Source: Owenia fusiformis (taxonomy: Eukaryota; Annelida; Polychaeta; Sabellida; Oweniidae). Taken from it: 64,000 nucleotides of DNA. Positions 11,983 to 38,349 of this stretch are shown here, piece by piece; position 1 is the first letter of the stretch; every line of letters starts with the position of its first letter. The translations under genes were made by a program, and so were the position numbers. The notes under the pieces were generated by a model that was given only the letters and a program-made list of their open reading frames with translations, was not told where the DNA came from and searched no databases. The stretch lies in NCBI GenBank assembly GCA_903813345.2, contig CAIIXF020000008.1, positions 6,704,366 to 6,768,365 of the forward strand, given 5' to 3'.

Positions 11983-12098
11983 TACTGTTGAGCGAAATTT
12001 ACAACAACCTGGCAACCGTTAAAGAAAACAAAAATCGCAACAAAATGATCATGCCTAATGGATAGAACACACTCAACAAATCAACCAACCAAGTGGAA

Positions 12099-13442
12099 AT
12101 GGGGAATGGTGTTTCTACTGCTCTTGTTCGAATCGGCAAACCAGGTGAACGCTTATCAGAAGATGAGGTTGAACTTGCATCAAATTGTTTAAATAGGTTG
12201 CCAGTGGTGTATAAAGGTTACAACAATGTTCCCCTCGAAGAAATATCTATGTCTTGGGAACTTTATAAAGTTAAAAAATCTACCATTATCGCAAGAGCGC
12301 AGGGAGATATGACCATGGAAGGAATATTTATCATATTGGACGGAACTATCGAACTTTTATCTGATAAAGATCGCTTAATAGTCGCAGGCTTGCAGAAAGG
12401 GGAATTTGTTGGTGATGTTCCAACAGTATTCGAAAAGCCATGTGCCGCAACATGTCGTGCTAAAAAAGATACAAAGCTATTATTTCTGAGTAAATCGTCT
12501 TTAACACCAACTATTCTCTCAGTTGAAATTACCATGGACGAATGGTTAGTCAAACGAATGTTTCTTGCGTGTACAGGAAAAGAAAGGGAACATATAGCTA
12601 GGAGAATTACTGTAAGAGTCTTACAACGAATCCCACTTTTTAGAAAATGGGGACTTATTTCACTACAGATGTTGGTCGATTACATGAGAAACCCTATTAT
12701 AATATACCCAAACAAGGCAAAGCTTATTATGGAAGGCGATCCCTCCGAAGCCTTACTTGTTGTCCTTAGGGGAGAAATAGGGATATACGAGCAAAACAAT
12801 CTTATTCAACGTATTGGGCCCTCATTAGATACATTTCCGATATGGATCGGCGAGGAGGGTTTGTTATCAGGTGAAGTGAGACCCTTTACGCTAAGAGCAC
12901 ATTCCATTTGCCAGATAATTGTGATCCAAAAGAATACAATCGAGAGTGTAGCCGAAGTAAGAACGGGGGATGCTGGTCAAGCTTGGGAATATGAACAAAA
13001 ATCCTGCAAAGAACGAATATCTCGTCGAGATGAGAACTTATACATTAAACATAAAGCCTTTCTTCAATATGAAACAATACTCTTGAATTTAAAATCGAGA
13101 AATATTGACAGATTTGCAAACTTCACCGTTCAAAATCTTTGGCACATTGCGACAAAAAGCACAGTGAAACATTTGAAAAAAGACTCCACATTTTCGCAAG
13201 ATAAAACTTTGGATATCTTGATTTATGTGTTAACTGGGTCACTTCGTGTTGAATCATTTGATGACGAAAATGACAACGATGTGTTCAACATGACAATTGC
13301 AGAGGGTCAGCTATTTGACCCAAGAACACTTTCAAAAGATGGAAAAGATATTGCTGCTACTCAGTCAACACTTTTACTTGAAATACCAAGTGCAGTTGTG
13401 GCTGAAGCGGAGAACCTCAGCGAAATAATTGAGCTTATTTAA
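12099..13442 (+). CDS. Intronless protein with three cyclic-nucleotide-binding-like folds, probable N-myristoylation
   Basis: A single 447-codon frame. ATG 12099 is in strong Kozak context (A at -3, G at +4); an in-frame stop lies at 12063, and the GTG six bases upstream is not used. The N-terminus MGNGVS fits the MGxxxS/T myristoylation consensus. Three CNB-like beta-barrels follow. The first (~residues 55-130) has GEFVGDVP...PCAATCRA. The second (~170-285) has IPLFRKWG, EGDPSEALLVVLRGEIGIY and GEEGLLSGEVRPFTLRA. The third (~335-440) has ILIYVLTGSLRV but no recognisable phosphate-binding cassette. Only the second keeps the Glu and Arg positions of a cassette, so at most one site looks able to bind cAMP or cGMP. 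No kinase, channel or GEF domain is present. A membrane-tethered regulatory or scaffold role is inference. Its lack of introns may mean retroposition. It is tail to tail with the eag gene. Confidence 0.8.
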   Translation: MGNGVSTALVRIGKPGERLSEDEVELASNCLNRLPVVYKGYNNVPLEEISMSWELYKVKKSTIIARAQGDMTMEGIFIILDGTIELLSDKDRLIVAGLQKGEFVGDVPTVFEKPCAATCRAKKDTKLLFLSKSSLTPTILSVEITMDEWLVKRMFLACTGKEREHIARRITVRVLQRIPLFRKWGLISLQMLVDYMRNPIIIYPNKAKLIMEGDPSEALLVVLRGEIGIYEQNNLIQRIGPSLDTFPIWIGEEGLLSGEVRPFTLRAHSICQIIVIQKNTIESVAEVRTGDAGQAWEYEQKSCKERISRRDENLYIKHKAFLQYETILLNLKSRNIDRFANFTVQNLWHIATKSTVKHLKKDSTFSQDKTLDILIYVLTGSLRVESFDDENDNDVFNMTIAEGQLFDPRTLSKDGKDIAATQSTLLLEIPSAVVAEAENLSEIIELI

Positions 13443-18438: not shown

Positions 18439-21400
18439 CTGGAAATAAAGCGACATATTATATCAGAATCATGTCCATTGTTAACTAAAAAGCACCAAAT
18501 ACAAAAGCAATAATAAGAAGGAATGAGGACGGTAGCGGTATAACGTTCAATCAAGTTATACCAATTATGGCACAATCCTTGTTGTAGTTTCTGAAAAATT
18601 GTGAAGCTTATCAAATGAATCTTAGCTTATCCTAGAAGAATATATTGAAGGCAGAAAGATGGAATGAGTATCAGAATGATTGGTATCTGAATTTTGCAAT
18701 ACTAATCGAAATCTTGAAAATGATTTAAAGATGTCGCGTGAGGAAAATTGTTTATAAAATGGCTATATTTATTCATATCTCATAAATGTCAATATTTAAC
18801 AGAACAATTCTTATAAATATAGGTCCATAAATCAAGGGACTATATTCTCGGTGTACTATAATTTTTCCTAAACAAAACAACGCTGTTTATCCAATTAATA
18901 TTATATGCTAGTGATAGCTTCAAATTCACAAAACAAAATACTAAGACTGCATTAGAGCCATGTTGATGATTGATGAATTCTCCACTCACCCTATGCCTAA
19001 GGTTGTAGGTTAGCGTAAGATTGCGGGCGAACGAGTTGGAAAATGCATGGTAGAATTCCAAGACTTCAATCAATCGATCTCGCTTTATAATATGGAGATC
19101 ACAGTACGTCAATCCCCTGACATTCGCCGTTGATTGCCCAATTGAGTTCTCCTTCCAGAAACAGTCCCCGAACACATCGCCTTTACCTAAATATATGATG
19201 ATTATGTTATCGGTGGATTTGGTAATTGGTTATATTTCGAGGAAAAGATAGATGTCTTATCAAAATAGAATTGAATTGTCATTTTGAAAGAAATACTGTT
19301 GAGGAGTTCGGAGTTCGGAGTTCTGTTTTCTTATTTCAATTTAGTTTCAAGAACAAACAACCAGGCCCGTAGCCAGGATTTCCAGGGGGGGTTCACATTT
19401 GACAAATTTGGCCCAAATATGGCTAAAATCACTTGAGAAGTGCTCAAAATGGTGAAAAACTGCATGATTTTGAAAGAATTTTTGGCCAGGGGGGAACCCT
19501 GCGAACCCCCCTGGCTACGGGCCTGAACAATATACTATTAATCTTTCTATTTTTTACATGGTATGTTACATAGCGTCCCTCTAGTCTACTTACTCAAAAT
19601 GGCAACCACTTCGTCATCCTGAATGACTTCTAGGGAACCGCTGACAATGAAACACAAGGCATCCAGACTCTCTCCCTGATGAAACAGGAGGTCCCCCGGG
19701 GCACTATGGCTCATGGTAAAGTGCATGGCGAGGGCACGGAGACATCCATCACTGGCTAATCTGAACGCAGGGTGCTCGTTGAACACCTTCCTATTCAGGT
19801 GTACGCATATATCTGCCTTCATATCTTTTGGACAGTAATTTAACACCTGGAATATTTTTGAAATATATAATTTACATAGATTGTGTTTCGTTTAAATAAT
19901 TATAATTATTTGATATCAAGCTGTTTCGAGAATCTAAATATGGTACCAAAGTAGGTTTTCATTTTCAAGCAATTGATAATTTGAGATAAAACAAAGAGTT
20001 TGATATTGATTGACGATGTTTGTTACTATACACAACAGTATACTGTGACATATGTTTACTTAAAATATGAAGCATTGCTGTAATACAGTCATGCTATAAA
20101 TAATTATCTTATATTACTTTATAAAAACTTGAGGTGTATGATATTCTAGCTAGCTGATTACAACAACTACAACATGGCAAGTTTTGTTAAATATTGTCAC
20201 GACAACTTTTGTCAAAAAACTGAAGGACACTTTTAATAAAAATCAATTCAAATAATGCTTGTTTTCACGAGAATTGTATGACAATGCTACGACTTGGCGT
20301 CATTCAATTAATTCCCTTGGATAGAATTGGGACTATTGTTGTTATTCATATTACATGTAGGTGGACAAATGGACAAATGCCAAAAGAAAAGGACTAAAAT
20401 TGTCACCGGACACAGAAAGAAAACGAAAACATCTATCTAAGACTCTTAGACTCTCAAAGAGTACACCAGTAATAAGGACATAAAATGTTTGAATCTTAAA
20501 ATATTGTTGGTATTTTTAAGAAAGTGCCGATGAGAAAACATTAAAAGAAATCTAGTAAACGTTAGCATGCACAAAAATCCGTCCAGCCTACGTCCATCTA
20601 TCTGCTATAACCACGGGCTGTTTGGTGGTACAGTGCGGTGTTGCAAGCAATATACGAAACGAATGCATGCATATTCGCATCTCATAGTAATAAAGCATAT
20701 ATAGTTGTGAACAAAAACAATATAAAGATAGATAAGTATCCAATATACAGTTTATAGAGATCAGGAGAGAACTGTGTTGAAATTACCCATCTTTGACTTC
20801 CAAGGTGTTTTTAACAAGGTGTTAAAGTTGGAGCAACTGATCAAGAAACCTTGTGAATCAAGATGTGTGTTGTCCTGAATGCCATCCTTGGTCCAAGGGT
20901 ATTTCACTTCTTTCCATTGAGTAATAAATGAAGTCCTTTGAATGAAGGATGCTGAATGCGGATAATCAAGACAAAAATACACGTTGGATACAAATGCATC
21001 TCTGACAACATTAAACATGCAAATAATAAGAGTATCTAATAACCAAAAGTAACACATACATGTAGTACAGACAGCAAATCAGTTCTTATAAAGAAAGGAC
21101 TGCAGCAAAAAAACTATAAAACTATAGCTAGGCGCCACAAAGTGAACCCTGCAGTGCACCATATGTATGATTGCACTTAAATAACACGAATTGTGTGTGT
21201 GAGTGGTTTTGTCCCTCATGCAGTCCAGTTGCTTTCCCAGTAAGTCCCGTAACATCCCCATCCTATTTCGATTCCTATTTTTGTATGGAACCTCTAGATC
21301 TCATTTTGTACAGTTCAGAATAAAAGCACACATTTTATATTAATGTGATCGAAAGCATCTCGTAGTCGTAATCGTAACCCAATCAACTCCACGAATTTGT

Positions 21401-24400
21401 GCCATGTGTTAGAATAGGTGCTTTTTGATGTGTAATGTTTGTGGTGTGTGTACAAGGCGAACTTTCCCCAAATGTGCAAACCAAAGCGCAGTACTGACGC
21501 AAGGAAGCTACACTACTTTTCAATTACATACTTTGTAGGTGTCAATGCCTTTATTCAAGGCCCAAGTAGAAACCACATAATCCGTAACTCGTTCAGCGAG
21601 AGACCTTGGCACATCGTGCAATTTCATAAATTGTCGAACAGATTCCGACATTTCGTGGTAACGAGCTGAGGTCGAGTACATCTGTTGAAATATTGTCGTC
21701 ATGTTACCAAAAATTGTTGCGTAAAGCAATGCTGAAATGTATGAATAAGGAATGTAAAGCCTGAGGGAAAGATATCAAGCAGTGCTGAAAACTAGAACTC
21801 TGTTCTCTACATACGCCCCCTGGCATGGATGGACCTCGTGGCAAAGCTGCTGAAGAAATCATGAAGGCTAGAAGCTAAGGCAAACAAAACATGCAAAACA
21901 GAGTGATGGAAGAATTTTCTATGAAGACAACGCAGATCTGCCAAAACAAGCAAAAGAATAAGACAACAATTCAGAGGGACAGTCAGGGAGAGTCAACAGC
22001 ATGTGGATGGTCTATTATACCTTGGCTGTGTCAATGCCTTTAGAGAGCGCCCACGTGGACACTACGTAATCAGTGACACGCTCGGATAAGGACTTAGGGA
22101 TTTCATTTGTCTTCATGAACTCTCGAACGTTGTTCAACATATCATGATATCTTGCACTAGTAGAGTACATCTGTTGGAAAATCGTTGTAACGTTACCAAA
22201 TATGGTAGCATAAAGTAATGCTGAAAAGTAATAATTGATCAAATTAATCAAGTACAATTATATATTCACCATTAGCTCCAAGTACAGTTTATATGCACAA
22301 TCAGCCCCCATGATTAATTGATTATGCATCCACAAGATCTTTGACCATCCAATAATTGTCCCCATGGTTCTTTGTCTAGGAATACTATTTCAACAATATT
22401 TCTGTTCCAAAAGGACAGAGTTATCTTTTAACAAAAAGGGTGTCGAGTTTGATTCCTAGATATAGTAAGTTGTTAACTCTTTTCTTCTAGATTTTAATCT
22501 ATAGAAAACACATTACACAATTCAAAGTAGCGTGAATATACGTACATCCAAGAATCATCATGCATATCGAGAAGATCTTCTCTAACTCTGTGTTGGCGGA
22601 TACATTTCCAAATCCCACACTGGTCATACAGGACAGTGTGTAATAGAGGGCAGTGCAGTATGTCTCTCCCTTCCCCGGGCCGCCAATCAATTCCTTAGTT
22701 ATGTTATTAATTCCAGTATAGTTCTTATTCACTAGGGTGCTCAGTCTCCAGAGCCAGCCATAGTGTAGGGGGGTTTGAGTGGAGGCCTCGGCGTATCCTA
22801 TACTGTACCATATACAAGCGAACCAGTGAGCAATAACAACAAACATTACAATCAGCAGTACAAGGACAGCAGCACCATATTCCAGATAATGGTCAAGTTT
22901 ACGTGCCACACGACCCAAACGTAGGAGACGGACAACCTTCAATGCACTGAATAAACTGCTGATATGCTGGAAAAAGAAAATGGAAATGTGAATTTTAAGT
23001 CATGGCGTTTTAAGGTTCAGTTTTATTCACATTCTCTGAAGTCTTACACTATTTTATTTAAAATTTATATTATATATTTCTTAATACCCAATATTATTAC
23101 ACTGATAGCTACATATAACTGACACTTGTTTTATGATACTATTTATTCAGATTTATTACTTGCAGCACTTTGAGAGCACAAAAGGTGTATAATTAACCAC
23201 ACTTTATCTCTTGATCATCACGTGTTTACTTACTTCTTCGACGTGTTGGAAAGCATTGAAGACGTCATAAGGGAGACAAGAGAGTAGGTCAATCACAAAC
23301 CAACTCTTCAAATAGTTCATCCTGATGATCTTAGGGTCTGAGACAACCTCACCGTTAGGCCCAACGAATGTCGTGTGGAAGTTCAAGATGATATCAATGA
23401 AGAATATGACATCTACTATACTGTCCGCGACCAGTAGAGGAACATCGTCCATTTGTTTATTTTTGAAAGCCACGTTATAAGGAACCTGTAAAACGCGGAA
23501 GTAAAATGTGTATTATGTATACATCTGTATTACATACCTAGCGAAGCATTTGTATGAAAGTCAATGGGAAAGTTAGCGAGCTATATCCACCGATATTGCC
23601 CGATTACCCCGATATAGCCCGCTTACCTCGTTTTGATATTAGATTTCTTTAATAACCATGATAATATCATGACGTCACGTCATTGATACAAAGTAACCAT
23701 GGGAACAAAGGCATGTAATACATCAGTTATGTCACTATGACGTGAAATATGCCTTCGTTCTTGCCCAAATATAGAGCCTCCCAAGGTCGGCCTATATTGG
23801 GAGAACTCAGGCATATTTCACGTCATAGTGACATAACCTCTAATTATTGCCCTTTATGAAAAAGGAGATACATTGATACAGTGTATTTAAGAAAAAAAAT
23901 AGTAAATGTTGATGTGAGTCAACATTTTTATATAGTTCATCTCATAAAAGTTTACTAATGATCACATCATTTATCTTTAGTATGTGTTGTTTATTGTAGA
24001 TAAGGCCATATATGTGCTTTTCTATGGTAGAAGTGAAATCTTTCTAGAAAGTCATTTAAACATATAAAAAGTGAGTTTATTTTTGTGTTGCGTTGTGCGA
24101 AACCATTCTAGTGTGTCACGTTATACTACTGAATAAAAATACATCAAATAGAATGATGAGACACCGAGACTTGTGCAAACACACTGACACAAGAATAAAT
24201 CATTGTCAACAGAATTCCTGACAATATCTTTGTGATAGGCTAGAAGTACACATGATTTACAACAAGAGTTGACATAGCTAGCAGGATTCAAAGGAAATTC
24301 TATCCCGTTCTATCAAGTACGACGATCAGGATATAATTTACAATTAAATAATTATCAGGCGCTCCATCACAGATAATGGTACGCCTTTCAAAATACCTAT

Positions 24401-27400
24401 GGCTTGAGCCAGATACTTTGAGTCTTGGCTTATACAAAATATATTTAACTACTTAAGCACAGTGGCTTATTAAAGAGTCATTTGGCCCATACTTGAAGAA
24501 GTGAAAGGGAACTTAAGGAAACCTCAATTCAGTAGGTGGACATGCAAAGTTCTCTACTCAAATTTCTCAATTAATACTTTATCTAACCAGTTAAGAAATA
24601 GTACCATGTGAAAGCTGATTTAATTCTCTGTGACTTGCTCTAGAGTTCCTCTTGATCTTATACACATGTTAATTGTGAAAAGATGAAACATATAAATCAA
24701 TTTGAAAAATATGGTCGACCATGTTACAAAACAACTTCATCTCCATTTATATACACATCTATCTAAATACAATTGTGGGCTTTTAAGTCCAAAATATATC
24801 CCTTGCACGACACTGACACGCGGTTGGTAAAAGTACCCACCATAACTGCCGTGTAGAGGGTAAGCATAAGAATGACCCAGTCCCACGTTGCCTTGAACAC
24901 TGAGTAATGGAGGATGATGTGTGGAGGCGTCTTTGGTGTCTCCTGTCTGTATTGGGGCAGGGCATCTGAGGTCAGGTTCATCATCTGCAGTTACAAAATA
25001 TACCTGTTAACATCGTTGTTTATGTTTACTTGTTTGTTTGTTTGTGCATTTGTTTGTTTATTATTTGATAATGTAGTGCGCTCATCTAGACATTATTATT
25101 TTCATTTCATGTGGACAACACACCATTAGTCTAACACATGGAGCAGTGAAAAAAGAGAGGATGAAAAAGAGATTTGATGTCATCGTATGATCTGTAGAAT
25201 GAAGCCTTCTGATTGGCCAGTTCTTGTGCTGTACCAATCTGAATTGCTATTGTCCCCATTGATCATCTCCGTCGCAATACAGAAAATATTGGTACAGAGG
25301 GGACATTCTCAATAGCAATACAGAGGATCAGACGATAAAAATGTTATAAAATGATTTGAAATGCAATACAAGATATATTCTGCTCTCGATATTCTGTATT
25401 GGCACTCGACATCGTCTCGTTCCAATACGGAATTCCTCGAGCAGAATATATCATGTATTTCACTTCATATCATTCAATAACTTATAATATTATTTATTCA
25501 ACGTATTCATGGAATACATGTAGGCTACTAAACCTAAAATTTCCTAGAGTTCTGACTCAAGCAAAGCTTTGATTTCCAGCATATTGTGATGATTCTAAAC
25601 AAGCTATGGGCGTAGCCATTTTCAATTCTAAAAAATCGTCAATTTCAAATCGTCAATTATTGTCATATTTAATCTAAAATCTCTAACATTTTTTCGAACA
25701 TAAAAGACCTAATAGATTGCTTCAGACATTTGAAACTCTCTTATTGTGTTGCTATTTTAAAACTATATGCTATTGTGAACGATCCATTGTTTTTGTCTTT
25801 CCTATCATGATTACCAATTCACCAACCACCAGTATATTGAATTGAATGGCTACCTCTATGCACTTATATTAACGAGATGAAATACGAGATGAATTATTCA
25901 TAGTCATATTACCATTATACAGAAATATCGCAAAATCATGCAAATACATGTACTGAATATGACCTGATTGACAGCGAGATGTGATGGTAAATGCGGTAGT
26001 TTTTGCGGTATTTTTCGACAAAAATGCGGTAGTTTTACGGTAGATTTTCGAAAAAAACGGTACCTTTTTGGAAGTTTTTGAAAATTGCGGAAGTTTTACG
26101 GTAGGTTTTGAAAAATGCCGTAGTTTTGCGGTAGATTTTTGAAAAAGGGTAGTTTTGCGGAAGAGTTTGAAAAATGTGGTAGTTTTACGGTAGATTTTGA
26201 AAAATGCTGAAGTTTTTGCAGTAGACATTTGAAAAAAACTGTAGTTTTGCGGAACATTTTGAAAAAAATGTGTTAGTTTTTGCGGTAGATTAAAAAACAG
26301 ATTTTGCGTAGATTTTGACACAATTCAATGAATAATAAAGTATGTTTTTCTAACACAGCATTCATGGAACTCTTTCATAAACAGACTAACAATTTGAACA
26401 CTTCAGAGTTTTTATAAGTAACAGTAGAACATGTGGTAGTTAACACTGTGTTTTTGCATCACGATACTCCCCAGTGTGTTGACTGATTACATGCCAGCTT
26501 ACTTAGTTACAAGTACGCAATAACCACTGTCACAGACCTGCCGACAACTATTAATTTTCGGGCTAGTAATGGAATATTACAAGGGCAATGCGGGAAGACT
26601 TCAATTTTTCAGAATTTTCAGATAATAACGGTAGATTTTACGGTAGTTTGAATAAGAATACTGGTAATTTCGGCAGAAATACGGTAGATTTCCAAATACT
26701 TACGGTATATTTTACGGCCATTCGTATAGAAACAAATTAAAATAAAAAATGTTACGGTAGATTTCGGTAAAATTACGGTAGATGTTTTTACGGTCGTTTT
26801 TAAGGGAAAAAATGGTAATTTTTTACGGTAGTTTGTCATTTTTACGGAAAAACGAAAATTTTACGGTAGATTCCCTTAAAAATACGGTAGGTTGGCAGGT
26901 ATGCGAATGGGGTGCACGCTAGAAACAATGACCTTGTAATGACCCTCGACCTTTGTATTCTATAAACATACATAATTTGTTTAAAAATTGCTCATACTCA
27001 TGAAAACTATCAACCTGATCCTCATCACATCTCCTATTAGCAGATTGCCTCTGCTGAAAGAACACCAAGGTATATTATAATGGATGAATGGACAAAGAAT
27101 GGACATAGTTGCAATGCTGCTTCTTAACAAGTCTTACTCCAGGAGTTTAACACAACGATATTATCATTGAGACTACCGAAGAGCATTCTGATACTCATCA
27201 CATCTTTCTGTCTTCAGCCAGAAATACTCAAGGCTAGTAGAAGGTCATGATTTCTCATTGAGACTACACGAGAGGGTTGGAAAGGAGAGCACAGATCATC
27301 GAGTTTCACGCGAGACTACGAGCTAATCTGTGATTTTTACAATGTTTCGTCGAGATAAGCCTCAATGCTCTGCCATCTTTAATACACGATGTTATCATGG

Positions 27401-30400: not shown

Positions 30401-33400
30401 CATAAATGACCCTGGGTCCATGCACTTGTGTTACTATGGTAACCATAAAACCGGCCAATCAAATCCTAGTAACTCCATACTTCATATTTATATTTATAAA
30501 TGTACAAGGAACATTCTGACCAAGTTTCATAACATTTGAAGCATAAATGACAAATTGTCATTGACGTTACTTCTTGGACACCCTGTATATGTATTATATA
30601 ATAAATAAAGCCATTTGGCGAAGTTTTCGGCAAACGTTTTCAAGATTTTGGAAAACAATTTTCTCTTTATATAGGTCAAAACAGGCTTATAATATAAAGT
30701 TCGAGTAAATAGTGTATTCAACTTTCTATTCAGACCATACAGACATGAAAATTAAACTATCTTATGTACATGTGTTGTGTTTGATTTTGTCGGTCTCCAT
30801 GTACTTACACTTGCTATCTGTGAAGGTTTGGAATCTATTGCTTTTGTGTTTGGGGTGGGCACCTGCGAAGAAAACTGTAGGAGCACCGACCGGTTCCGCG
30901 TCACTGACCTTGCCAGACGAGCAAACTTGCTCAAATTCACTGAAATATAAAGAGTGTAAATTATTCTTTTGATCATTTTCCACCATGCCCTTATATTAAC
31001 AAGCTGTTGCTATGACAACAACGTTGACAAAGAGGATAATAATTTATTTATATTGCACAATAGAGGATGTAAATATCCTGCAACTATTCTGTCTGCGTGT
31101 ATACTTATTTGAGACCCTAAAACACTAGTACACTGCATCATAGGATTATATTCATTTAATATTAAATGATATATTTTTAAACTAGCAGTACAACATTTGT
31201 TTTTCATATCTTTTGAAAGAATACCCATCATCATTTTGACATTTAGTTGATTAACCTTGACCTTGAGCTTTCAAATCTCACATTACTTCAAGGTGGAGTT
31301 AATGTTAAACGGAGTATTATTTGTAATAAATCTAAAGTCTAAACTCCGCTTCAAATTAACAAACATAGCGTTAACCTCCATTGCATTCACATTTTGACTA
31401 TTTAATTAGGTGCCATTGAAGTTAACAGGAAATGACAAAACAAAAAGTGACAAAACCATGCTGGATTTTGAAATTAATTGAACCAATATAACAGAGTTCT
31501 GTTTGGACACCCAGTCAGTTTAACTAGTTCCACATATCATTTACATGACCGGGAACAAAATAGAAATGGTCAGAATGACCAAAACATGATGAAATAACCT
31601 TTTCAGCCCTCTGAAATGTGACTAAAAAAATAGCTAAGAGTAGGTGCTCAGGAAAGGTCACTGAACAAAATCTTTTGACTTTTTCAGAAAATGTGCCTAA
31701 TATATTGCTCTAAATGATACAATTTAAAAAAATTGATATCATACTTAGAAAAAGAAAAAAATGAAAAAACTGAATTGAAAATCGATCTGTTTTCCTTTTT
31801 ACTACAGCCATTATTGTTTCGGACAATTTTTAAAAATTTCAAAGATTGTATCATTTAGAGCAATATATTGGACCCATTTTCTGAAAAAAATCAAAAGATT
31901 CTGTTCACTGACCTTTCCTAAGCACCTACTTTTAGCTATTTTTCAGTCACATTTTCAGAGGACTGAAAAGGTTATTTCATCATGTTTATGGTCATTTTGA
32001 CCATTTCCATTGTGTCCCCGGTCATGTAAATGATATGTGGAACTAGTTAAACTGACTGGGTGTCCAAACAGAACTCTGTTATCTTGCTTCTAAAAAAATT
32101 TAAAATCCAGCATGGGTTTGTCACTTTTTGTTTTGTCATTTCCTGTTAACTTCCATGGCACCTTAACACATGACCTTGAATTGACTTTAAACATGTCTCC
32201 AGTAAGCAGGATTGTTTAAATATTAAAACATAAATATTAATAAAATTTCATGCGGATACTTCTAAATATTTGATCTAATACATATAGAGAGAAAAAGTAC
32301 CATGGGTACGTATACTTTGCTCACAAAGGAAGGTAGTCTCAACAAAGGTGTCAGCCATTGTATTTTAGATTTTTTTCTAAATGTTTTGCTGAAAACTAGA
32401 AACCACATTGCAGGCACCCGATAAATCAAGCTTTCTGTAAAATGTTAAATACGTGAAATAAATATGAAGCTTAGAGACAATAATAATCGTTTCTTTGCAA
32501 TGAGGTGAGCTTTCTGACTTTGAGACACAATTTGGTTTGAAACAATGGCTGGAACACACTGCCACAGGTGTTTGTGAGGTGGGAGAAAACAGTAGCTGAC
32601 CTATGTGAGCTAAAATTCCGTTGCTATCACAATTGTAATGCTTGAAGATAAGAAAATGTACAACACATCTGTGAAAATAGAGTTTGAAATTAAAGGATAG
32701 TTTCGTATTGTTGCTTGAATGTCTAATCATATAAAAGAAACACTAGCAAGAATCTATAATTAGTTCTTAGATATAAATAGTGGTTTATGAAACCAACACC
32801 GGGGTTAGAAACTCATCATTAATTAAAATATGCTACAGGATATTAAGATAAATCAGTAATAAAATAACACTTACGTTTTGTAGATACACTACCCAAAATA
32901 AATATTAAAGTCATAATTTGACGAGACAATCGTTGACTAAAATTTTGAAAGTGTAGCTTATATACATGGCTCCACAGATGTTTGAACATTGATGTTTGAT
33001 ATTTTTATAGTGTTATATAATATAGTATAGTGCACACTATGTGTATTATTGATAGGCATTGTATATGTTATAGAAATAATATCAAAACGTAAACATGTGA
33101 TCAAATTGATTCAAAGACAGCTACTTGCATGCACTATGTTTGACAATCATTTGTCAACTAAATAAATGTTTATAGAGCAGAATTCTCAATGTGTTCATTT
33201 TTTCAAGGTATTTTGGGTAGTGTATAATAAAATTCTACTGGTGTAAAAGGAGGAAAATAATATCCCATTCCGTGTGACAACGACGTCTATCTAGGAAGTA
33301 CTAAATAATAGTACAAAATGAGCTTTTGGAACATTAACCAACCGGGGTTCATACTTTTCCCATTGTCTTCTTCGATGGGCTGCTTTAGGGCGGTGATATC

Positions 33401-36400
33401 TCGGAATGTGCATAGATAGAGAACCACCGCGTCCTTCTCGTTTTTGATGGGGGCAATGTGTAGCAATAGCCATAGTGGCGTCCCTGTAAATACATGCACA
33501 CACACTTGAGATATCATGTAGTGATTAGGCATTGTAAGGAAGATAACTTGGAAAGAAAATGTATATATTCAACAGATGACGGTGCAAAACATTACTCTTA
33601 TACAAAGTACTTGAAACTTGAAAAGAGAATATATCTTGAACTGTTAGCAGGAAAAAATTGTTCATATCATATTACTTTAAAATTTCAGTACTCAGAAAGA
33701 AAACATATTTAATATAAACTTTTGACCTTGCAAAGGAATAATATTATATTTCTTTTTAAAGTACAATACTTGCATTTAGGAAACATTTTTGTCAACCGTT
33801 GACAATGGGAAAAATGATCATGATATATTACTTTTCGTGTACAGTACTTAGAATGTAAACGTATATTCAATATTTGACCATAGACAATAATTGTCAAAGT
33901 GTGTTAAATTTATAAGGCACAGTACCTTGAAAGAAAACATATATTCAACCGTTGACCATGGGATAACTGTCAATGTACGTAGCACTTATTGAGTAAAGTA
34001 CTTTGAAATGAAACATATATTTAACCGTTGACCATGGGATAATTGTCAATGTATGTAACATTTATTGAGTACAACTTGCTTTGAAAAAAAGAATACATTG
34101 AACCGTTGACTAGAAGTACGAATTGTAACTGAAATTCATGTCAAAAAGCAATTAAATCGTGTATGAATGGTCTCACATACTTATGCCTGCTTTTGGACTT
34201 AAAAGTATGCTTTTAACAAAATGAATATCCATTCTTTAGAATCAGGCTTTGCTGCTCTCGCAGTTCATGAAAAAAGTAAAATAAAATTGGATTAAAGATG
34301 GTTTAAATAATACTGTTCTAATCACACATTTCCACAGGTAAAATCGAACAAATATAATTCTCATTACAATAGCAACGTTCAATATGTCAGTGTGACGGTT
34401 TTCAATTGACATGTCATGGCGACAATTACATCTCGAACGCATGAACAATCATGAGTTTAATCAATGAAATGTAGGTGTGCTTATATCAGAACAAAGACAA
34501 AATATCTAAAATAAAAGAGCAATACTCATTTCAACTGACAAGTCCATTCTGGGTATGTCAATGCCATGGACGATTCCAGAGACTATGAATAGCAATTACT
34601 AGTACTCAGGTCATTCACATATTTCTTTTTTAAAAACAGAAAGTGCACTCGTTTTCATTATAACATGGCCCATTATCGTCTAAATGACTATAAAACTCAC
34701 GTGATCATTTTTTAACCTATAATTACAGAGGTAAATCCGTTCTTCGGATGATAATTTTTGATAGCCCTGTTTTACCATGAAACAAAACTGTTTGCTCTGG
34801 CACGACCATTTCGACGAGATTAAATGTAGTGGAAACTTGATGCCAAAACATACATTTGATGGTCTATCAAAATGTTACTTGCATGAGAAAATACCACATT
34901 ACCACGCCTAACCATCGACAACATACAATGACAAAACACGTCGTCGTACACTTTAGATGTACGGTGTCACTATTAACCGGTTTGAAGCAAAGACAATGAT
35001 GTAGATTTGAAGTAGGTTTTAAAAAAATATCTGAGCAATACATTAAGGATTTCAAATTTGATTTCGTGTGTATTCGTTTGGGAAGACATTTAACTTTCTA
35101 GTAACGTTAAAATATTTTCAAACAGTGCTCGATTTTTTCGTGGTAAATCTACCCAATGCATATAACTGGTCGGTTGCAAAATGTTGTTTTTTACACATTT
35201 CCTTTGATCATTTCCTCCCCTGTCGTCTAAGAGTGTCGAATATTTTCATGAGAATATGTTTCTTTAAACTACACAATTAAGGTCTGATGAAGATTTAATA
35301 AGTATTAACGTTTTGGCTATAATCTAAAAAATCATAAGTGTACGTTGTCAACTCGAATGTACGTTGTCCCATTCAACTTACTCAATTCACAGTTAATCCC
35401 GGTAATGCATGCAACGTATTTTTCATAACACTTACATACAGGGGGTCAGATGAATTTAAAATTGAAACAGAACAATTACAGAATAACTTCAATTTGATTC
35501 AATTATTGAAACTATTGAGCACTTTCCAGATATATCGTAAACGGGATTTTCAAAATTCATATTCAATTAGCAAGTATAAATAATGTATCTATTAATGTAA
35601 CTAACAAAACGTAAGGTACAGACGCCAAATAATCAAAGAGGCTGAAAGCAAACTCCGTGGCAGTGCTAGTCTTCAACATATTCTATTCTGAGACACTGAA
35701 TGGGAGTTGGGACTGGAAGCCAACACCCAATAGGCACAAATTACCCACCAACACAACAATACTTTCATAAAATGAAAAAGCAAAAAATCACATTTGCCTT
35801 ATCTTTAAAATCATCTGTACAAAGGATACTTGAACATGTTCGTTAAAGATCACTTGTTATTTATAAAAACTTTAATGAATTTTGAAATGAAATCATTACA
35901 TTGTTTTATATTATATCTCATGAATTTCAATTACAGTAACAACGTACATTCGAGTTGACAACGCACATTTCTGATTTCTTTAAATTACAATAAATACTTG
36001 AATATTTATTAATCTCCACCCGTCCTAAATTGTGTAGTTTGGAGAAACATATTCTCATAAAAATATCCGACACTCTTAGACGTCAGGCACAACAAATCGA
36101 GCACTGCTCGAAAATCTTTCAAACTTATCAGAAAGTTAAATGTTTTCCCAAACGAATACACACAAAATCAAACATGAAATCCTTAATGTATTCCTCAGAT
36201 TATTTTTAAAACCAACATCAAACCTACATCATTGTCTTTGCTTCAAATCGGTTAAATAGTGACACCGTACATCCAAAGTGTACGACGGTATATTTTGTCA
36301 CTGTACGTTATCGATGGTTAGGCGTGATTACTATTATTTAAAGAGAGAAATAAATTTTCAAAGTAAGCAATTAATGAAACCTCAAATCTCATCCGATCTA

Positions 36401-38349
36401 CAGATAGATATAGGCACAAAATGATCGCTTTAAAGTACGTCAAACAGTTTTCAGTGAGATTCAAACTTGACGCCCCATCATTTACAATATTTCTCTAAAT
36501 ACTCATTAGAAGAACCAATTGTTCGAGAATTTGAATCCATGAGAAAGTTTGCATGGAATGATGCAAATGCAATATCTTTCATCATCACAAATTGTTTCGG
36601 AACTAATTTTGAAGAGTTGTTCATGAACCAAATGCCCCAAGCATGGTATGTTCAATTCTGAATTATTTAGAAAAATGAATATACTTTTTTTTGAAAAATA
36701 TCAGTTTATTAATATACAAAAATCATTTTTATGACGTGATATTCGATTGTTCTAGGGATTTGATAATCGAAGGTTATGTGATTTTTGGTCATTTATGATC
36801 TTGAATTTCGCACATATCAAATATATCTTCAGGTGATATATCGTTTTTCTGAAAATATAAATTGCTATTACTGTTGGCAGCATACGCTAACTTATTCAGA
36901 CAGTTATGAGACGTTTCCATTGTCAATTAATACTTCCATTAATATCTTCAGCATGTAAATCATGCCAAAAATAGGTTCACAGAGTAATTTTATTGGAATA
37001 GTGTAGCTTATAGTGCAATAGTGTATATCCAAGGATTATTATTTTATCTGTACACCGACAGATCCTGATTTTATACTTAAGGAGATCCGTTTGATATTTC
37101 AGAAAATCGCTTCGCTTCGCTCACTCGCGTGATATTTGATATCAACTCGTCGATATGTGTAATTATTTATTATTAATTGTCGAAATTATGGGTACTAGAT
37201 TAGATTAGACTAGTGTGGTTGGATGCCTTAAAAAATAGAATATGATGGAAAATTGTGTGACTCCTATGATATTTTGTATATTGTATGTGTTAATGTAACT
37301 GCTTTCAAATGTTTTTTCAATGAATAAAAAAAGGAATAAAAAAACAAAAAAACTCGTCGATAACAAATATTATCACATGCTATGTAAACTTCTAGTGATT
37401 TGATTGCTGCGCTTTCGTGGTGATACAATTTTTACTTTCGTGGGATATTTCCGTATCACATGCTGAAACGAGTAACTACTAATGCCACTCAAAATAATCT
37501 GTTACTCTGTATTATGGCAAAGGTACGTGGTATTTATGACACATATATAAGTCCGTATCCCGATAATCATGACAACTACATGGTAAATGATAGAGAAGCA
37601 GGTGTTTCAATAGTTGTGGTCGAACATCACGATATCATAACAATTGCTAGAAATCAAGCATTGTTCTATAAAACAGTATCATCTCATGTTTTTATCAGCG
37701 TCTAATCTGGGATTATATACCGTCTATCATACGAGAATAACAGTTATCAGATTTACTTCATTGTCTGAATGTCTGTCTAATTACTGAGGCACACCTGAAT
37801 CATTGTCTTTAGATACGTTCGTAACAAATAAAAACAACACAAATTAAATGGGACACACATATATCCTAGACCATTGACCTCTAATACTCGACGTACTATT
37901 CATTCGGATTACTGAATGTAGGTGCGTTCGATATATTACACATTCTTCTTTTCAATGCTTGATTTAAAACTCTGGACTACGTGCCTTAAATTCAATAAAA
38001 AATGATATGTACCATGGCCAGTATCATATGGATTATCACCAAACGACCTTGTTTGCTTTCAAAAGACTTTACTACACCTTTTATATTATCTAGTGAAAAC
38101 AAAAGCGTTTTTACTCACTATTCTTTTTATACAGCAATATTTCCACTTGTATTTGTTCCTGATCTTCAAATGCTTTATCAATTTTTTTCATGGTGTCTTT
38201 GTCCGTAAGATCCCCAACCATGAACGTACACGTGGAGCTCTTCTGCATTATCTCTGCCCTATTGTAGCCTGACAACTTGCAGAAGCCATCATTAGAATAC
38301 ACGATTGGGTAATCCAGAATACGAGCATTGGACAGCAGAAAGCAGCTAT
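17086..38349 (-). CDS. eag: Voltage-gated potassium channel of the ether-a-go-go (Kv10, KCNH) family; first exon outside window
   Basis: Coding segments on the minus strand, in transcript order: 38349-38119, 33483-33355, 30939-30809, 24984-24841, 23485-23234, 22966-22546, then either 22220-22021 or 21731-21532, then 19846-19594, 19186-18990, 18438-17086. All junctions are AG/GT and in phase, giving about 1,102 residues. Order of domains: PAS, linker, S1-S6 with pore SVGFGN, C-linker, CNBHD with intrinsic-ligand YNL, a disordered tail and a terminal coiled coil. Similarity to fly and human Eag is high throughout and excludes Erg and Elk. The channel would be a plasma-membrane tetramer controlling excitability. 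The Met-initiating exon (PAS cap) was not found; it is probably upstream beyond 64,000. No AATAAA was seen in the ~190 bp after the stop. Confidence 0.93.
18644..18677 (+). repeat. Dispersed 33-bp repeat, copy 2 (in eag intron)
   Basis: Same motif as at 2798-2830, with a few substitutions. It lies in the intron before the last eag exon. Confidence 0.45.
18990..19186 (-). CDS. eag: eag exon: second half of CNBHD
   Basis: Acceptor TTTAG|GT, phase 1 in; donor CATAGG|GTGAGT, phase 0 out; 197 nt. It encodes [19 protein letters not shown] through SLTYNL-type end residues ([11 protein letters not shown]). The YNL tripeptide is the intrinsic ligand that fills the cyclic-nucleotide pocket in KCNH channels, so this channel should not need cAMP. 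Confidence 0.93.
19362..19525. mobile_element. 164-bp MITE, hAT-like ends, in eag intron
   Basis: Begins CAGGCCCGTAGCCAGG and ends CCTGGCTACGGGCCTG, with inverted G-run and C-run next to the ends (GGGGGGGTTC / GAACCCCCC). Ends starting CAG are typical of hAT elements. No clean 8-bp target duplication is visible. It is non-coding. Confidence 0.6.
19594..19846 (-). CDS. eag: eag exon: C-linker end and first half of CNBHD
   Basis: Acceptor TTCCAG|GTG, phase 0 in; donor TTGA|GTAAGT, phase 1 out; 253 nt. It encodes [20 protein letters not shown] through [15 protein letters not shown]. This is nearly invariant in Eag channels and contains the interface to the PAS domain. It is shared by both alternative upstream exons. 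Confidence 0.94.
19847..21531. other. eag intron between alternative exon B and CNBHD exon
   Basis: AT-rich. Short frames at 20761-21057 and 21079-21261 have no similarity to Eag and no matched splice sites. I see no third copy of the duplicated exon here. Confidence 0.5.
21532..21731 (-). CDS. eag: eag alternative exon B: distal S6 and C-linker
   Basis: Acceptor ATTTCAG|CATTG, phase 1 in; donor TACAAA|GTATGT, phase 0 out; exactly 200 nt. It encodes [20 protein letters not shown] through GIDTYK. It is 52/66 identical to exon A. Differences cluster in [18 protein letters not shown], the first C-linker helices. Next to the highly conserved S6 gate it has Met where A and human Kv10.1 have Val. 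The start codon of the open frame here is TTG inside the exon and not a real start. Confidence 0.92.
22021..22220 (-). CDS. eag: eag alternative exon A: distal S6 and C-linker
   Basis: Acceptor CTTTTCAG|CATTA, phase 1 in; donor GCCAAG|GTATAA, phase 0 out; exactly 200 nt. It encodes [20 protein letters not shown] through GIDTAK, including [13 protein letters not shown] as in fly Eag. It is the more canonical version of the pair. The donor GTATAA is weaker than that of exon B. Confidence 0.92.
22546..22966 (-). CDS. eag: eag exon: S4 to pore and start of S6
   Basis: Acceptor TTCCAG|CATATC, phase 0 in; donor GGAT|GTACGT, phase 1 out; 421 nt. It encodes the S4 sensor ([20 protein letters not shown], basic residues every third position), S5, an extracellular turret with two N-glycosylation sequons (NYT, NIT), the pore helix and filter TSVGFGN, and the first part of S6. 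The turret is divergent from vertebrate Eag, as is usual. Confidence 0.94.
23234..23485 (-). CDS. eag: eag exon: S1-S2 loop, S2, S3
   Basis: Acceptor TTTACAG|GTTCC, phase 0; donor GAAGAA|GTAAGT, phase 0; 252 nt. It encodes [10 protein letters not shown], then S2 [20 protein letters not shown] and S3 [15 protein letters not shown], with the conserved acidic residues of the sensor. The next intron is only 267 bp. Confidence 0.94.
23726..23837. mobile_element. 112-bp MITE with 28-bp inverted ends, in eag intron
   Basis: Left arm from AGTTATGTCACTATGACGTG to GCC; right arm from GGCATATTTCACGTCATAGT to AAC, a near-perfect inverse. The loop contains a secondary inverted pair (CCCAAATATAG / CTATATTGGG). 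No coding content. Confidence 0.6.
24841..24984 (-). CDS. eag: eag exon: pre-S1 and S1
   Basis: Acceptor CTGCAG|ATGATG, phase 0; donor GTTATG|GTGGGT, phase 0; 144 nt. It encodes [20 protein letters not shown] and S1 ([19 protein letters not shown]). [18 protein letters not shown] is an Eag hallmark. Confidence 0.93.
25200..25490. repeat. Two adjacent inverted-repeat modules in eag intron
   Basis: 25344-25487 is a palindrome: TTATAAAATGATTTGAAATG on the left and the inverse of CATATCATTCAATAACTTATAA on the right, with inner arms GATATATTCTGCTC / GAGCAGAATATATC. Just before it, 'aattgctattgtcccc' and 'ggggacattctcaatagcaa' form a second inverted pair. They are probably parts of one non-autonomous element. 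Confidence 0.5.
25970..26340 (+). repeat. Minisatellite of ~30-bp 'GCGGTAGATTTTGAAAAA' units
   Basis: About a dozen imperfect copies of a unit containing TAGTTTTGCGGTAGA and TTTTGAAAAA. The long minus-strand open frame 25869-26321 exists because the repeat lacks stops in that frame; it is not a gene. A related repeat is at 26620-26895. Confidence 0.7.
26533..26900. mobile_element. Element with ACCTGCC ends and TACGGTAGATTT interior
   Basis: The left end ACCTGCCGACAAC and right end GTAGGTTGGCAGGT form a short inverted repeat. The interior is imperfect TTACGGTAGATTT repeats, related to the array at 25970-26340. It is probably a non-autonomous transposon whose interior grew by repeat expansion. 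Confidence 0.45.
27184..27216 (-). repeat. Dispersed 33-bp repeat, copy 3 (inverted)
   Basis: The reverse complement of this stretch reads TGAAGACAGAAAGATGTGAT followed by GAGTATCAGAATG, matching copies at 2798 and 18644. Confidence 0.45.
27220..29340. other. eag intron interior, nothing clear
   Basis: The minus-strand frame 28646-28858 and the plus-strand frame 27746-27964 show no similarity to channel sequence and no phase-compatible splice sites that I could support. No repeat is evident apart from simple A/T runs. Confidence 0.35.
29341..29830 (+). repeat. Dispersed copies of the 158-bp 'AAAATGGCCGCCTTA' repeat
   Basis: Two blocks (near 29390-29520 and 29735-29815) contain 'aaatccaaaatggccgcctt' type sequence followed by an 'aatgccgaaaaactgatta' type segment. 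This is the same unit that is tandemly arrayed at 54209-54890. Confidence 0.6.
30382..30585. mobile_element. 204-bp MITE with CAGGGTGTCC ends, in eag intron
   Basis: Starts CAGGGTGTCCAAGAAGTAAC and ends GTTACTTCTTGGACACCCTG, a perfect 20-bp inverted repeat. No convincing target duplication. Non-coding. Confidence 0.7.
30809..30939 (-). CDS. eag: eag exon: PAS-to-S1 linker
   Basis: Acceptor TATTTCAG|TG, phase 1 in; donor GCAAGT|GTAAGT, phase 0 out; 131 nt. It encodes [20 protein letters not shown] then [35 protein letters not shown] is the fly version. The reading frame is fixed by the flanking phases; two other open frames overlap it. Confidence 0.88.
31409..32162. mobile_element. 754-bp near-complete palindrome with TTA target duplication
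   Basis: The two halves are inverted copies over almost their full length, from GGTGCCATTGAAGTTAACAG at the left to CTGTTAACTTCCATGGCACC at the right. Long internal matches include 'cagttccacatatcattt'-type and 'cattttctgaaaaa'-type blocks. The loop is near 31745-31795. TTA flanks both ends (31406-31408, 32163-32165), the TWA pattern of PIF/Harbinger elements. Such a foldback would form a long hairpin in eag pre-mRNA. Confidence 0.7.
33355..33483 (-). CDS. eag: eag exon: second half of PAS domain
   Basis: Acceptor TTTACAG|GG, phase 1 in; donor GGAAAA|GTATGA, phase 1 out; 129 nt. It encodes [20 protein letters not shown] and [19 protein letters not shown], the closing strands of the PAS fold and the start of the linker. 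Confidence 0.93.
33540..34115 (+). repeat. Minisatellite of ~75-80-bp units beside an eag PAS exon
   Basis: Copies of a unit with GAAAACATATATTCAACCGT, TTGACCATGGGATAATTGTC and a 'tacagtact' end recur about six to seven times, best preserved at 33925-34110. It starts within 60 bp of the acceptor of the exon at 33483-33355. Confidence 0.65.
34116..34897. other. eag intron, nothing clear
   Basis: Short frames only (for example 34242-34448 minus). No splice-compatible Eag-like peptide and no repeat noticed. Confidence 0.35.
34903..36326. mobile_element. 1,424-bp non-autonomous DNA transposon with long inverted repeats
   Basis: The left end CACGCCTAACCATCGA and right end TCGATGGTTAGGCGTG are exact inverses. 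The arms continue for roughly 400-470 bp (for example 'attcgtttgggaagacattt' against 'aaatgttttcccaaacgaat', and 'gtcaactcgaatgtacgttg' against 'caacgtacattcgagttgac'). The middle, about 35380-35930, is unique and has no long frame. ATTAC flanks both ends (34898-34902, 36327-36331). It lies in the large eag intron after the first PAS exon. Confidence 0.75.
36332..38110. other. eag intron, mostly unannotated
   Basis: Frames at 36467-36661 and 37460-37705 (plus) are open but unrecognised. The stretch 37210-37350, ending in A-rich 'aataaaaaaaggaataaaa', may be a retrotransposon 3' end. No support for further exons. Confidence 0.3.
38119..38349 (-). CDS. eag: eag exon: first half of PAS domain
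   Basis: Acceptor TCAG|AT, phase 1 in; donor AAGAATA|GTGAGT, phase 1 out; 231 nt. It encodes [40 protein letters not shown] and the rest of the PAS core to LLYKKN. The first two bases complete a codon from a missing upstream exon that should hold the start Met and the PAS cap. Confidence 0.93.

Follow-up and report, generated by a model that had tools for sequence, protein, structure and literature searches.

An Eag-type potassium channel gene in the window (the whole stretch of 64,000 nucleotides analysed here, with positions counted from its first letter) carries two adjacent 200-nt exons, A and B, which encode two versions of the S6 gate and of the first part of the C-linker. Judged from the genomic sequence, this exon pair very probably gives two channel forms. 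We propose that an ancestral 200-nt KCNH exon for this segment would have been duplicated in tandem long ago, giving A and B, and that the pre-mRNA would be spliced with one or the other, one at a time. Single inclusion would keep the CNBHD in frame, while inclusion or skipping of both exons would lead to an early stop and to NMD. The choice between the exons would most likely be made by regulators, with UGCAUG sites as the best lead and Rbfox as the candidate, together with the decay of wrong products. The two resulting channels would differ at 14 residues, in S6 (V/M) and in the C-linker. We regard this account as a whole, from the old tandem pair and its alternative single inclusion through rejection by frame and NMD and choice by regulators to a changed gating, as highly likely.

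The host gene is an Eag/Kv10 channel

The window is part of contig C8 of the genome. The gene lies on the minus strand and runs from about 38.3 kb, where the first PAS exon was found, down to about 17.1 kb of the window. Besides the exon pair and its two neighbours, which are listed further below, the following exons were located:

38119..38349, minus strand: PAS exon 1
33355..33483, minus strand: PAS exon 2
24841..24984, minus strand: S1 exon (borders by eye)
23234..23485, minus strand: S2-S3 exon
18990..19186, minus strand: second CNBHD exon (3′ border by eye)

The domains over the cut-off were PF13426 (PAS), PF00520 (Ion_trans) and PF00027 (cNMP-binding). When compared with solved structures, the partial channel protein in its exon B version matched KCNH1 (3.5e-236) and KCNH5 (2.9e-234), followed by KCNH2 (2.4e-146). 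When the CNBHD exon was combined with A or with B, KCNH5 and KCNH1 were again the best solved relatives and KCNH2 came next. By similarity to these relatives, the gene is an Eag/Kv10 (KCNH1/5) channel.

The duplication is confined to one exon among the segments compared. Nine coding segments, A and B included, were used as tblastn queries against the window; neither a first exon nor the C-terminal one nor the exon at 30939-30863 belonged to this set. Only A and B found each other, all other second matches having E values of at least 0.12, and none of the seven other coding segments was found to be duplicated. Past the Eag gene, on its 3′ side, an uninterrupted frame of 458 codons occupies positions 12066-13442 of the plus strand, and parts of it look like cyclic-nucleotide-binding folds.

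We also searched the genome (498 Mb in 525 contigs) with exon A as the query and matches up to E=1. The search returned ten matches, the best five of which comprised A and B themselves and one exon at each of three further KCNH loci; the other five were weaker (E from 6e-4 to 0.96) and four of them lay in long open frames. By reading of their sequences, two of the three loci are Erg-like (L003 and L005) and one is Elk-like (L004). At all three the exon is exactly 200 nt long and bordered by AG and GT, which indicates that it is an old KCNH exon. It corresponds to exon 8 of hERG, which shares its length, phase and protein position with A and B. Among the four KCNH loci found, the 200-nt exon is thus present twice in Eag only, whereas the two Erg-like loci and the Elk-like locus hold one copy each. 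Neither a second Eag gene nor a third copy of the exon was found by this whole-genome search.

Two homologous exons encode the S6 gate and the start of the C-linker

The exon pair and its surroundings are arranged as follows, in the order of transcription:

22546..22966, minus strand: upstream exon, S4, S5 and pore; 421 nt, ending in phase 1 (from borders and PDB alignment)
22221..22545, minus strand: intron 1, 325 nt
22021..22220, minus strand: exon A, S6 and C-linker; 200 nt, V at the hERG V659 position (from ag/gt borders and open frame)
21732..22020, minus strand: intron 2, between exons A and B, 289 nt
21532..21731, minus strand: exon B, second version of S6 and C-linker; 200 nt, M at the hERG V659 position (from ag/gt borders and open frame)
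19847..21531, minus strand: intron 3, 1685 nt
19594..19846, minus strand: downstream exon, end of the C-linker and CNBHD; 253 nt, starting in phase 0 (from borders and PDB alignment)

A and B are adjacent and homologous, equal in length and phase, and have intact splice sites. The borders read ag/CATT...CAAG/gt for exon A and ag/CATT...CAAA/gt for exon B. Each exon begins in phase 1 and ends in phase 0, and each stands directly 3′ of TTTCAG and directly 5′ of GT, the donors of the pair being GTATAA and GTATGT. The donor consensus is matched at 5/9 positions by exon A and at 6/9 by exon B, and these scores do not indicate a preferred exon.

Exon A aligns over its full length to KCNH5/KCNH1, and in the whole-genome search exon B matched exon A over its full length (E=1.1e-30), a likeness far beyond chance. 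The encoded segments are identical at 53/67 residues when the codon interrupted by the splice junction at their start is counted and at 52/66 when it is not. The sequence-only reading had described two 200-nt exons, 289 bp apart and with the same phases, that encode the S6 gate and C-linker of an Eag channel with 52/66 identical residues. Coordinates and borders bore out the arrangement and the identity was reproduced, rising to the value above once the split codon is included. The segment proved to cover S6 and the beginning of the C-linker, with KCNH1 and KCNH5 as the closest solved relatives. A haplotype or assembly duplicate was ruled out by the divergence of the two copies, which are identical at only 135/200 nucleotides and near random at third positions. 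Within intron 2, positions 21774-21794 of the minus strand contain a 21-nt 3′-splice-site-like repeat of the exon starts (tagttttcag/cactgctt), which may be a decoy site, the relic of a third copy or a product of chance.

Only single inclusion keeps the reading frame open

Joined to both flanking exons, A alone and B alone each gave an open frame with no stop. In contrast, inclusion of A+B led to a TGA after 10 codons and skipping of both exons to a TAG after 18 codons. Both stops had been claimed from the sequence beforehand, as had the rule that only one exon at a time gives a channel, and all three statements held. Since each exon adds 200 nt, a length not divisible by three, and passes from phase 1 to phase 0, the CNBHD stays in frame by single inclusion only.

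The stop of the A+B form sits 167 nt 5′ of the next exon junction, a distance at which NMD would be expected, so double-inclusion messages should be NMD targets, and the same fate would be expected for the null form. In the best reading, wrong products are rejected by the reading frame and probably by NMD, and neither a short intron nor U12 sites are involved.

The same frame logic could also be put to another use. If exclusion were not strict at splicing, double and null forms might be frequent and destroyed by NMD, and the pair would then serve chiefly to switch the amount of channel on or off. The early stops of both forms, including the one placed 167 nt before a junction, agree with such a control, and an intron of 289 nt offers no steric block to joining the two exons. 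However, a poison exon needs no strongly selected coding sequence in the single-inclusion frame, and B has one. We therefore judge on/off control to be quite improbable, and prefer the reading in which A and B would be used one at a time and the wrong products discarded.

Both exons were kept by selection after an old duplication

The nonsynonymous divergence between A and B is low, with dN of 0.156 (ML) or 0.185 (NG86), and dS is saturated (4.4 by ML, undefined by NG86). The codon differences comprise 34 synonymous and 14 nonsynonymous changes, and third codon positions agree at 23/67, which is near random. These values come from a pairwise test of A against B, in which the two branches are not separated by a codon-level outgroup. 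The near-random third positions together with the kept protein imply that the duplication is old and that both copies have been held by selection.

Simulated neutral drift, started from exon A as a simplification, gave a similar picture. At each of 0.3, 0.4, 0.5, 0.75 and 1.0 substitutions per site, 0/4000 runs kept 53/67 residues without a stop; at shorter distances the share of passing runs was 0.0037 (0.2 substitutions per site), 0.06 (0.15) and 0.35 (0.1). The low dN, the saturated dS and the outcome of the simulation indicate purifying selection on both exons, which have been retained as coding sequence for most of the time since the old duplication.

We considered in this light whether exon B could be a dead copy, no longer spliced in and in frame by chance or through a recent loss of use. 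Exon B has indeed moved further than exon A. At six of the 14 sites at which they differ, only A agrees with KCNH1 as well as KCNH5, and at three sites only B does; the changes in B at the former six are V471M, L489S, N490E, K503R, S506A and S520N. Against a dead copy, dS is saturated yet 53/67 residues have been kept, with no stop and with intact splice sites. The simulation excludes long neglect of B but not short neglect, given the share of runs that pass at 0.1 substitutions per site, and a recent loss of B use may be compatible with it. A long-dead copy is thus ruled out by the dN/dS pattern and the simulation, and a dead copy of any kind appears highly improbable. The preferred reading is that both exons would still be used in mRNA.

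Exon A is identical to KCNH1 at 48/67 and to KCNH5 at 50/67 residues, and exon B to each of them at 46/67; on these comparisons both exons appear to fit the Kv10 family. At ten positions A and B share a residue that neither KCNH1 nor KCNH5 has, which fits a duplication after the lineage split or shared ancestral states.

Regulators are the most likely basis of exon choice

Two simple ways of excluding double inclusion were rejected. Steric exclusion by a short intron does not suit the 289 nt between A and B. For U2/U12 incompatibility, a by-eye comparison with the U12 donor consensus showed the donors of A and B to be unlike it, and the sites are ordinary GT-AG sites. Because intron 2 is too long and the borders are too ordinary for either kind of exclusion, regulators and decay would most likely set exon choice.

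Six protein-binding motifs were tested in the three introns, making 18 tests. The motif UGCAUG, which we take to be the Rbfox site, was present four times in intron 3 (at 21222, 21021, 20671 and 20571) against 0.66 expected, and 0/300 shuffles reached four. Intron 2 contained one copy, at 21895 (0.20 expected), which is not significant by itself, and intron 1 contained none. On the sense strand of the window there are 27 copies in 64 kb, a density that predicts 0.7 for intron 3. The excess comes from a set of 18 motif-by-intron comparisons and is a lead only. By the position rule for Rbfox, the copy in intron 2 could promote A and repress B, and those 3′ of B could promote B.

A different way to enforce exclusion would be by competing intronic RNA structures, in the manner of the docking site and selectors of Dscam-type clusters; this concerns the mechanism alone and would leave the pair as real as before. 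The 3′ splice site of A (TACTTTTCA, once in intron 1) and the sequence just after the 5′ splice site of B (TGAAAAGTA, once in intron 3) have a nine-base complementarity, and the duplex between introns 1 and 3 had an energy below all 20 shuffles (z=-3.2), from a method that forces one long duplex. However, chance alone would give about two nine-base matches between introns of such lengths, and the comparison covers a single species. Eight of the nine intron/exon duplex tests were ordinary (z from -0.71 to 1.03), as was folding (z=-1.2 in intron 1, +1.6 in intron 2 and -1.0 from intron 1 to the end of exon B). The duplex scan is itself a poor test of structure, since the program returns one long forced duplex. 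We consider RNA structures an unlikely basis for the exclusion, and favour choice by candidate regulators such as Rbfox, combined with decay.

The two forms differ at the gate and in the C-linker

Placed by the limits of the S6 and C-linker helices, one of the 14 differing residues lies in S6 and 13 lie in the C-linker segment, and the selectivity filter and the voltage sensor are unchanged between the A and B proteins. The S6 difference, at exon residue 11, is V in A and M in B, in itself a mild change. The exon start aligns to residue 649 of the hERG chain 8io4 (1159 residues), so exon residue 11 corresponds to hERG V659. V stands at this position in 7/8 aligned KCNH rows, exon B being the sole exception. 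In Eag1 numbering the residue is 471, which is consistent with the I467 and G469 named in an excerpt of PMC8039722.

Mutations of hERG V659 disrupted closing (PMC3439648, in excerpt), and V659P produced an inward, non-deactivating current on hyperpolarisation (PMC11380439, in excerpt). In the same S6 stretch of Eag1, I467V shifted the voltage dependence, and the S6/C-linker region is a site of Eag1 disease mutations (both from the excerpt of PMC8039722). By analogy with these channels, the B form would have an altered gating, and the swap likely affects closing speed, voltage range or the coupling of the cytoplasmic domain to the gate. In cacophony, the most drastic residue exchanges are located at a distance from the functional contact (PMC9741552, section on channel pairs), and the gating effects of A and B may therefore be small.

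One Eag gene can probably make two channels with different opening and closing. KCNH gating rests on S6 and the C-linker, and a natural, long-conserved second version of this segment would be a ready-made test of the residues that set closing and voltage range.

Relation to known channel exon pairs

Swapped channel exons are already known as a kind. Tandem mutually exclusive exons have been described in Ca-alpha1T, cacophony, para, slo, CACNA1C/D and NALCN, and several of these pairs are ancient (PMC9741552, section on channel pairs). As in these voltage-gated channels, A and B are homologous tandem exons that would swap one channel segment. The present pair differs from them in that, in an Eag gene, the exchange concerns the S6 gate and C-linker of a CNBHD channel, a functionally telling position.

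The sequence-only reading knew of no such pair at this position in an Eag gene. This agrees with the open-access literature, searched by title and the start of the abstract, in which no mutually exclusive exon pair of a KCNH or ether-a-go-go gene was reported among the matches listed; subscription papers, supplementary lists and database gene models were outside this scope. The cases named in the section of PMC9741552 on channel pairs are those of Ca, Na, Slo and NALCN channels; a KCNH/Eag gene is not among them. The main texts of PMC9741552, PMC5740500 and PMC7954323, taken apart from their supplementary gene lists, contain no word beginning with KCNH, and PMC3923563 contains none beginning with eag. 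Automatic annotation may already list both isoforms.

Other tandem exon pairs in the same genome

Five further stretches were picked by eye from the Ion_trans matches for looking like pairs, a choice that gives no frequency. All five hold two homologous open stretches:

G000:C5:18144900-18146500 (L012), exons 658-820 and 871-1033: Kv4 (Shal) S6 pair, 163 + 163 nt, 50-nt intron
G000:C8:32025600-32027400 (L011), exons 724-861 and 1087-1224: Nav S6 pair (domain III by reading), 138 + 138 nt, 225-nt intron
G000:C8:32018500-32020400 (L014): second Nav pair, about 7 kb from L011, upstream of the pore in Nav domain III (assignment by reading), 68% identical over 71 residues
G000:C9:18836600-18839300 (L015): T-type Cav pair, 84% identical over 51 residues
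G000:C9:26929800-26932800 (L013): Slo-like pore pair, on one strand and about 1.4 kb apart, 54% identical

The S6 pairs of Kv4 and Nav resemble the Eag pair in the helix concerned, in the equal lengths of their exons and in a low dN. In Kv4, 48/54 residues are identical and third positions agree at 24/54, with dN of 0.06-0.08 and dS of 2.6 (ML) or undefined (NG86). The corresponding values for the Nav S6 pair are 37/46 residues and 19/46 third positions, with dN of 0.12-0.15 and dS of 21.6 (ML) or undefined (NG86). The pairs differ in what would prevent double inclusion. The Kv4 exons are separated by 50 nt, compared with 289 nt in Eag, and are likely mutually exclusive, enforced sterically by the short intron. 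The Nav exons, unlike those of Eag, have a length that is a multiple of three, so that the frame would not reject double inclusion.

It is conceivable, although we advance it only tentatively and would not call it probable, that swapping the S6 gate helix by tandem exons is a repeated device in this animal. It would then have arisen independently in Eag, Kv4 and Nav domain III under different constraints on double inclusion (frame, 50-nt intron and neither, respectively), and Eag B, with M at the hERG V659 position, would be a channel of altered closing or voltage range in particular cells. Taken together with the Eag pair, the S6 pairs of Kv4 and Nav would point to exchange of the gate helix as a way in which evolution tunes channels, a pattern that is directly testable.

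A Ca-alpha1T exon pair is present in arthropods, nematodes and molluscs, that is, across protostomes (PMC9741552). The T-type Cav pair is probably this protostome-wide pair, no more firmly because that section of PMC9741552 gives no position for it. The Slo-like pair may represent tandem exons or, instead, two tandem genes.
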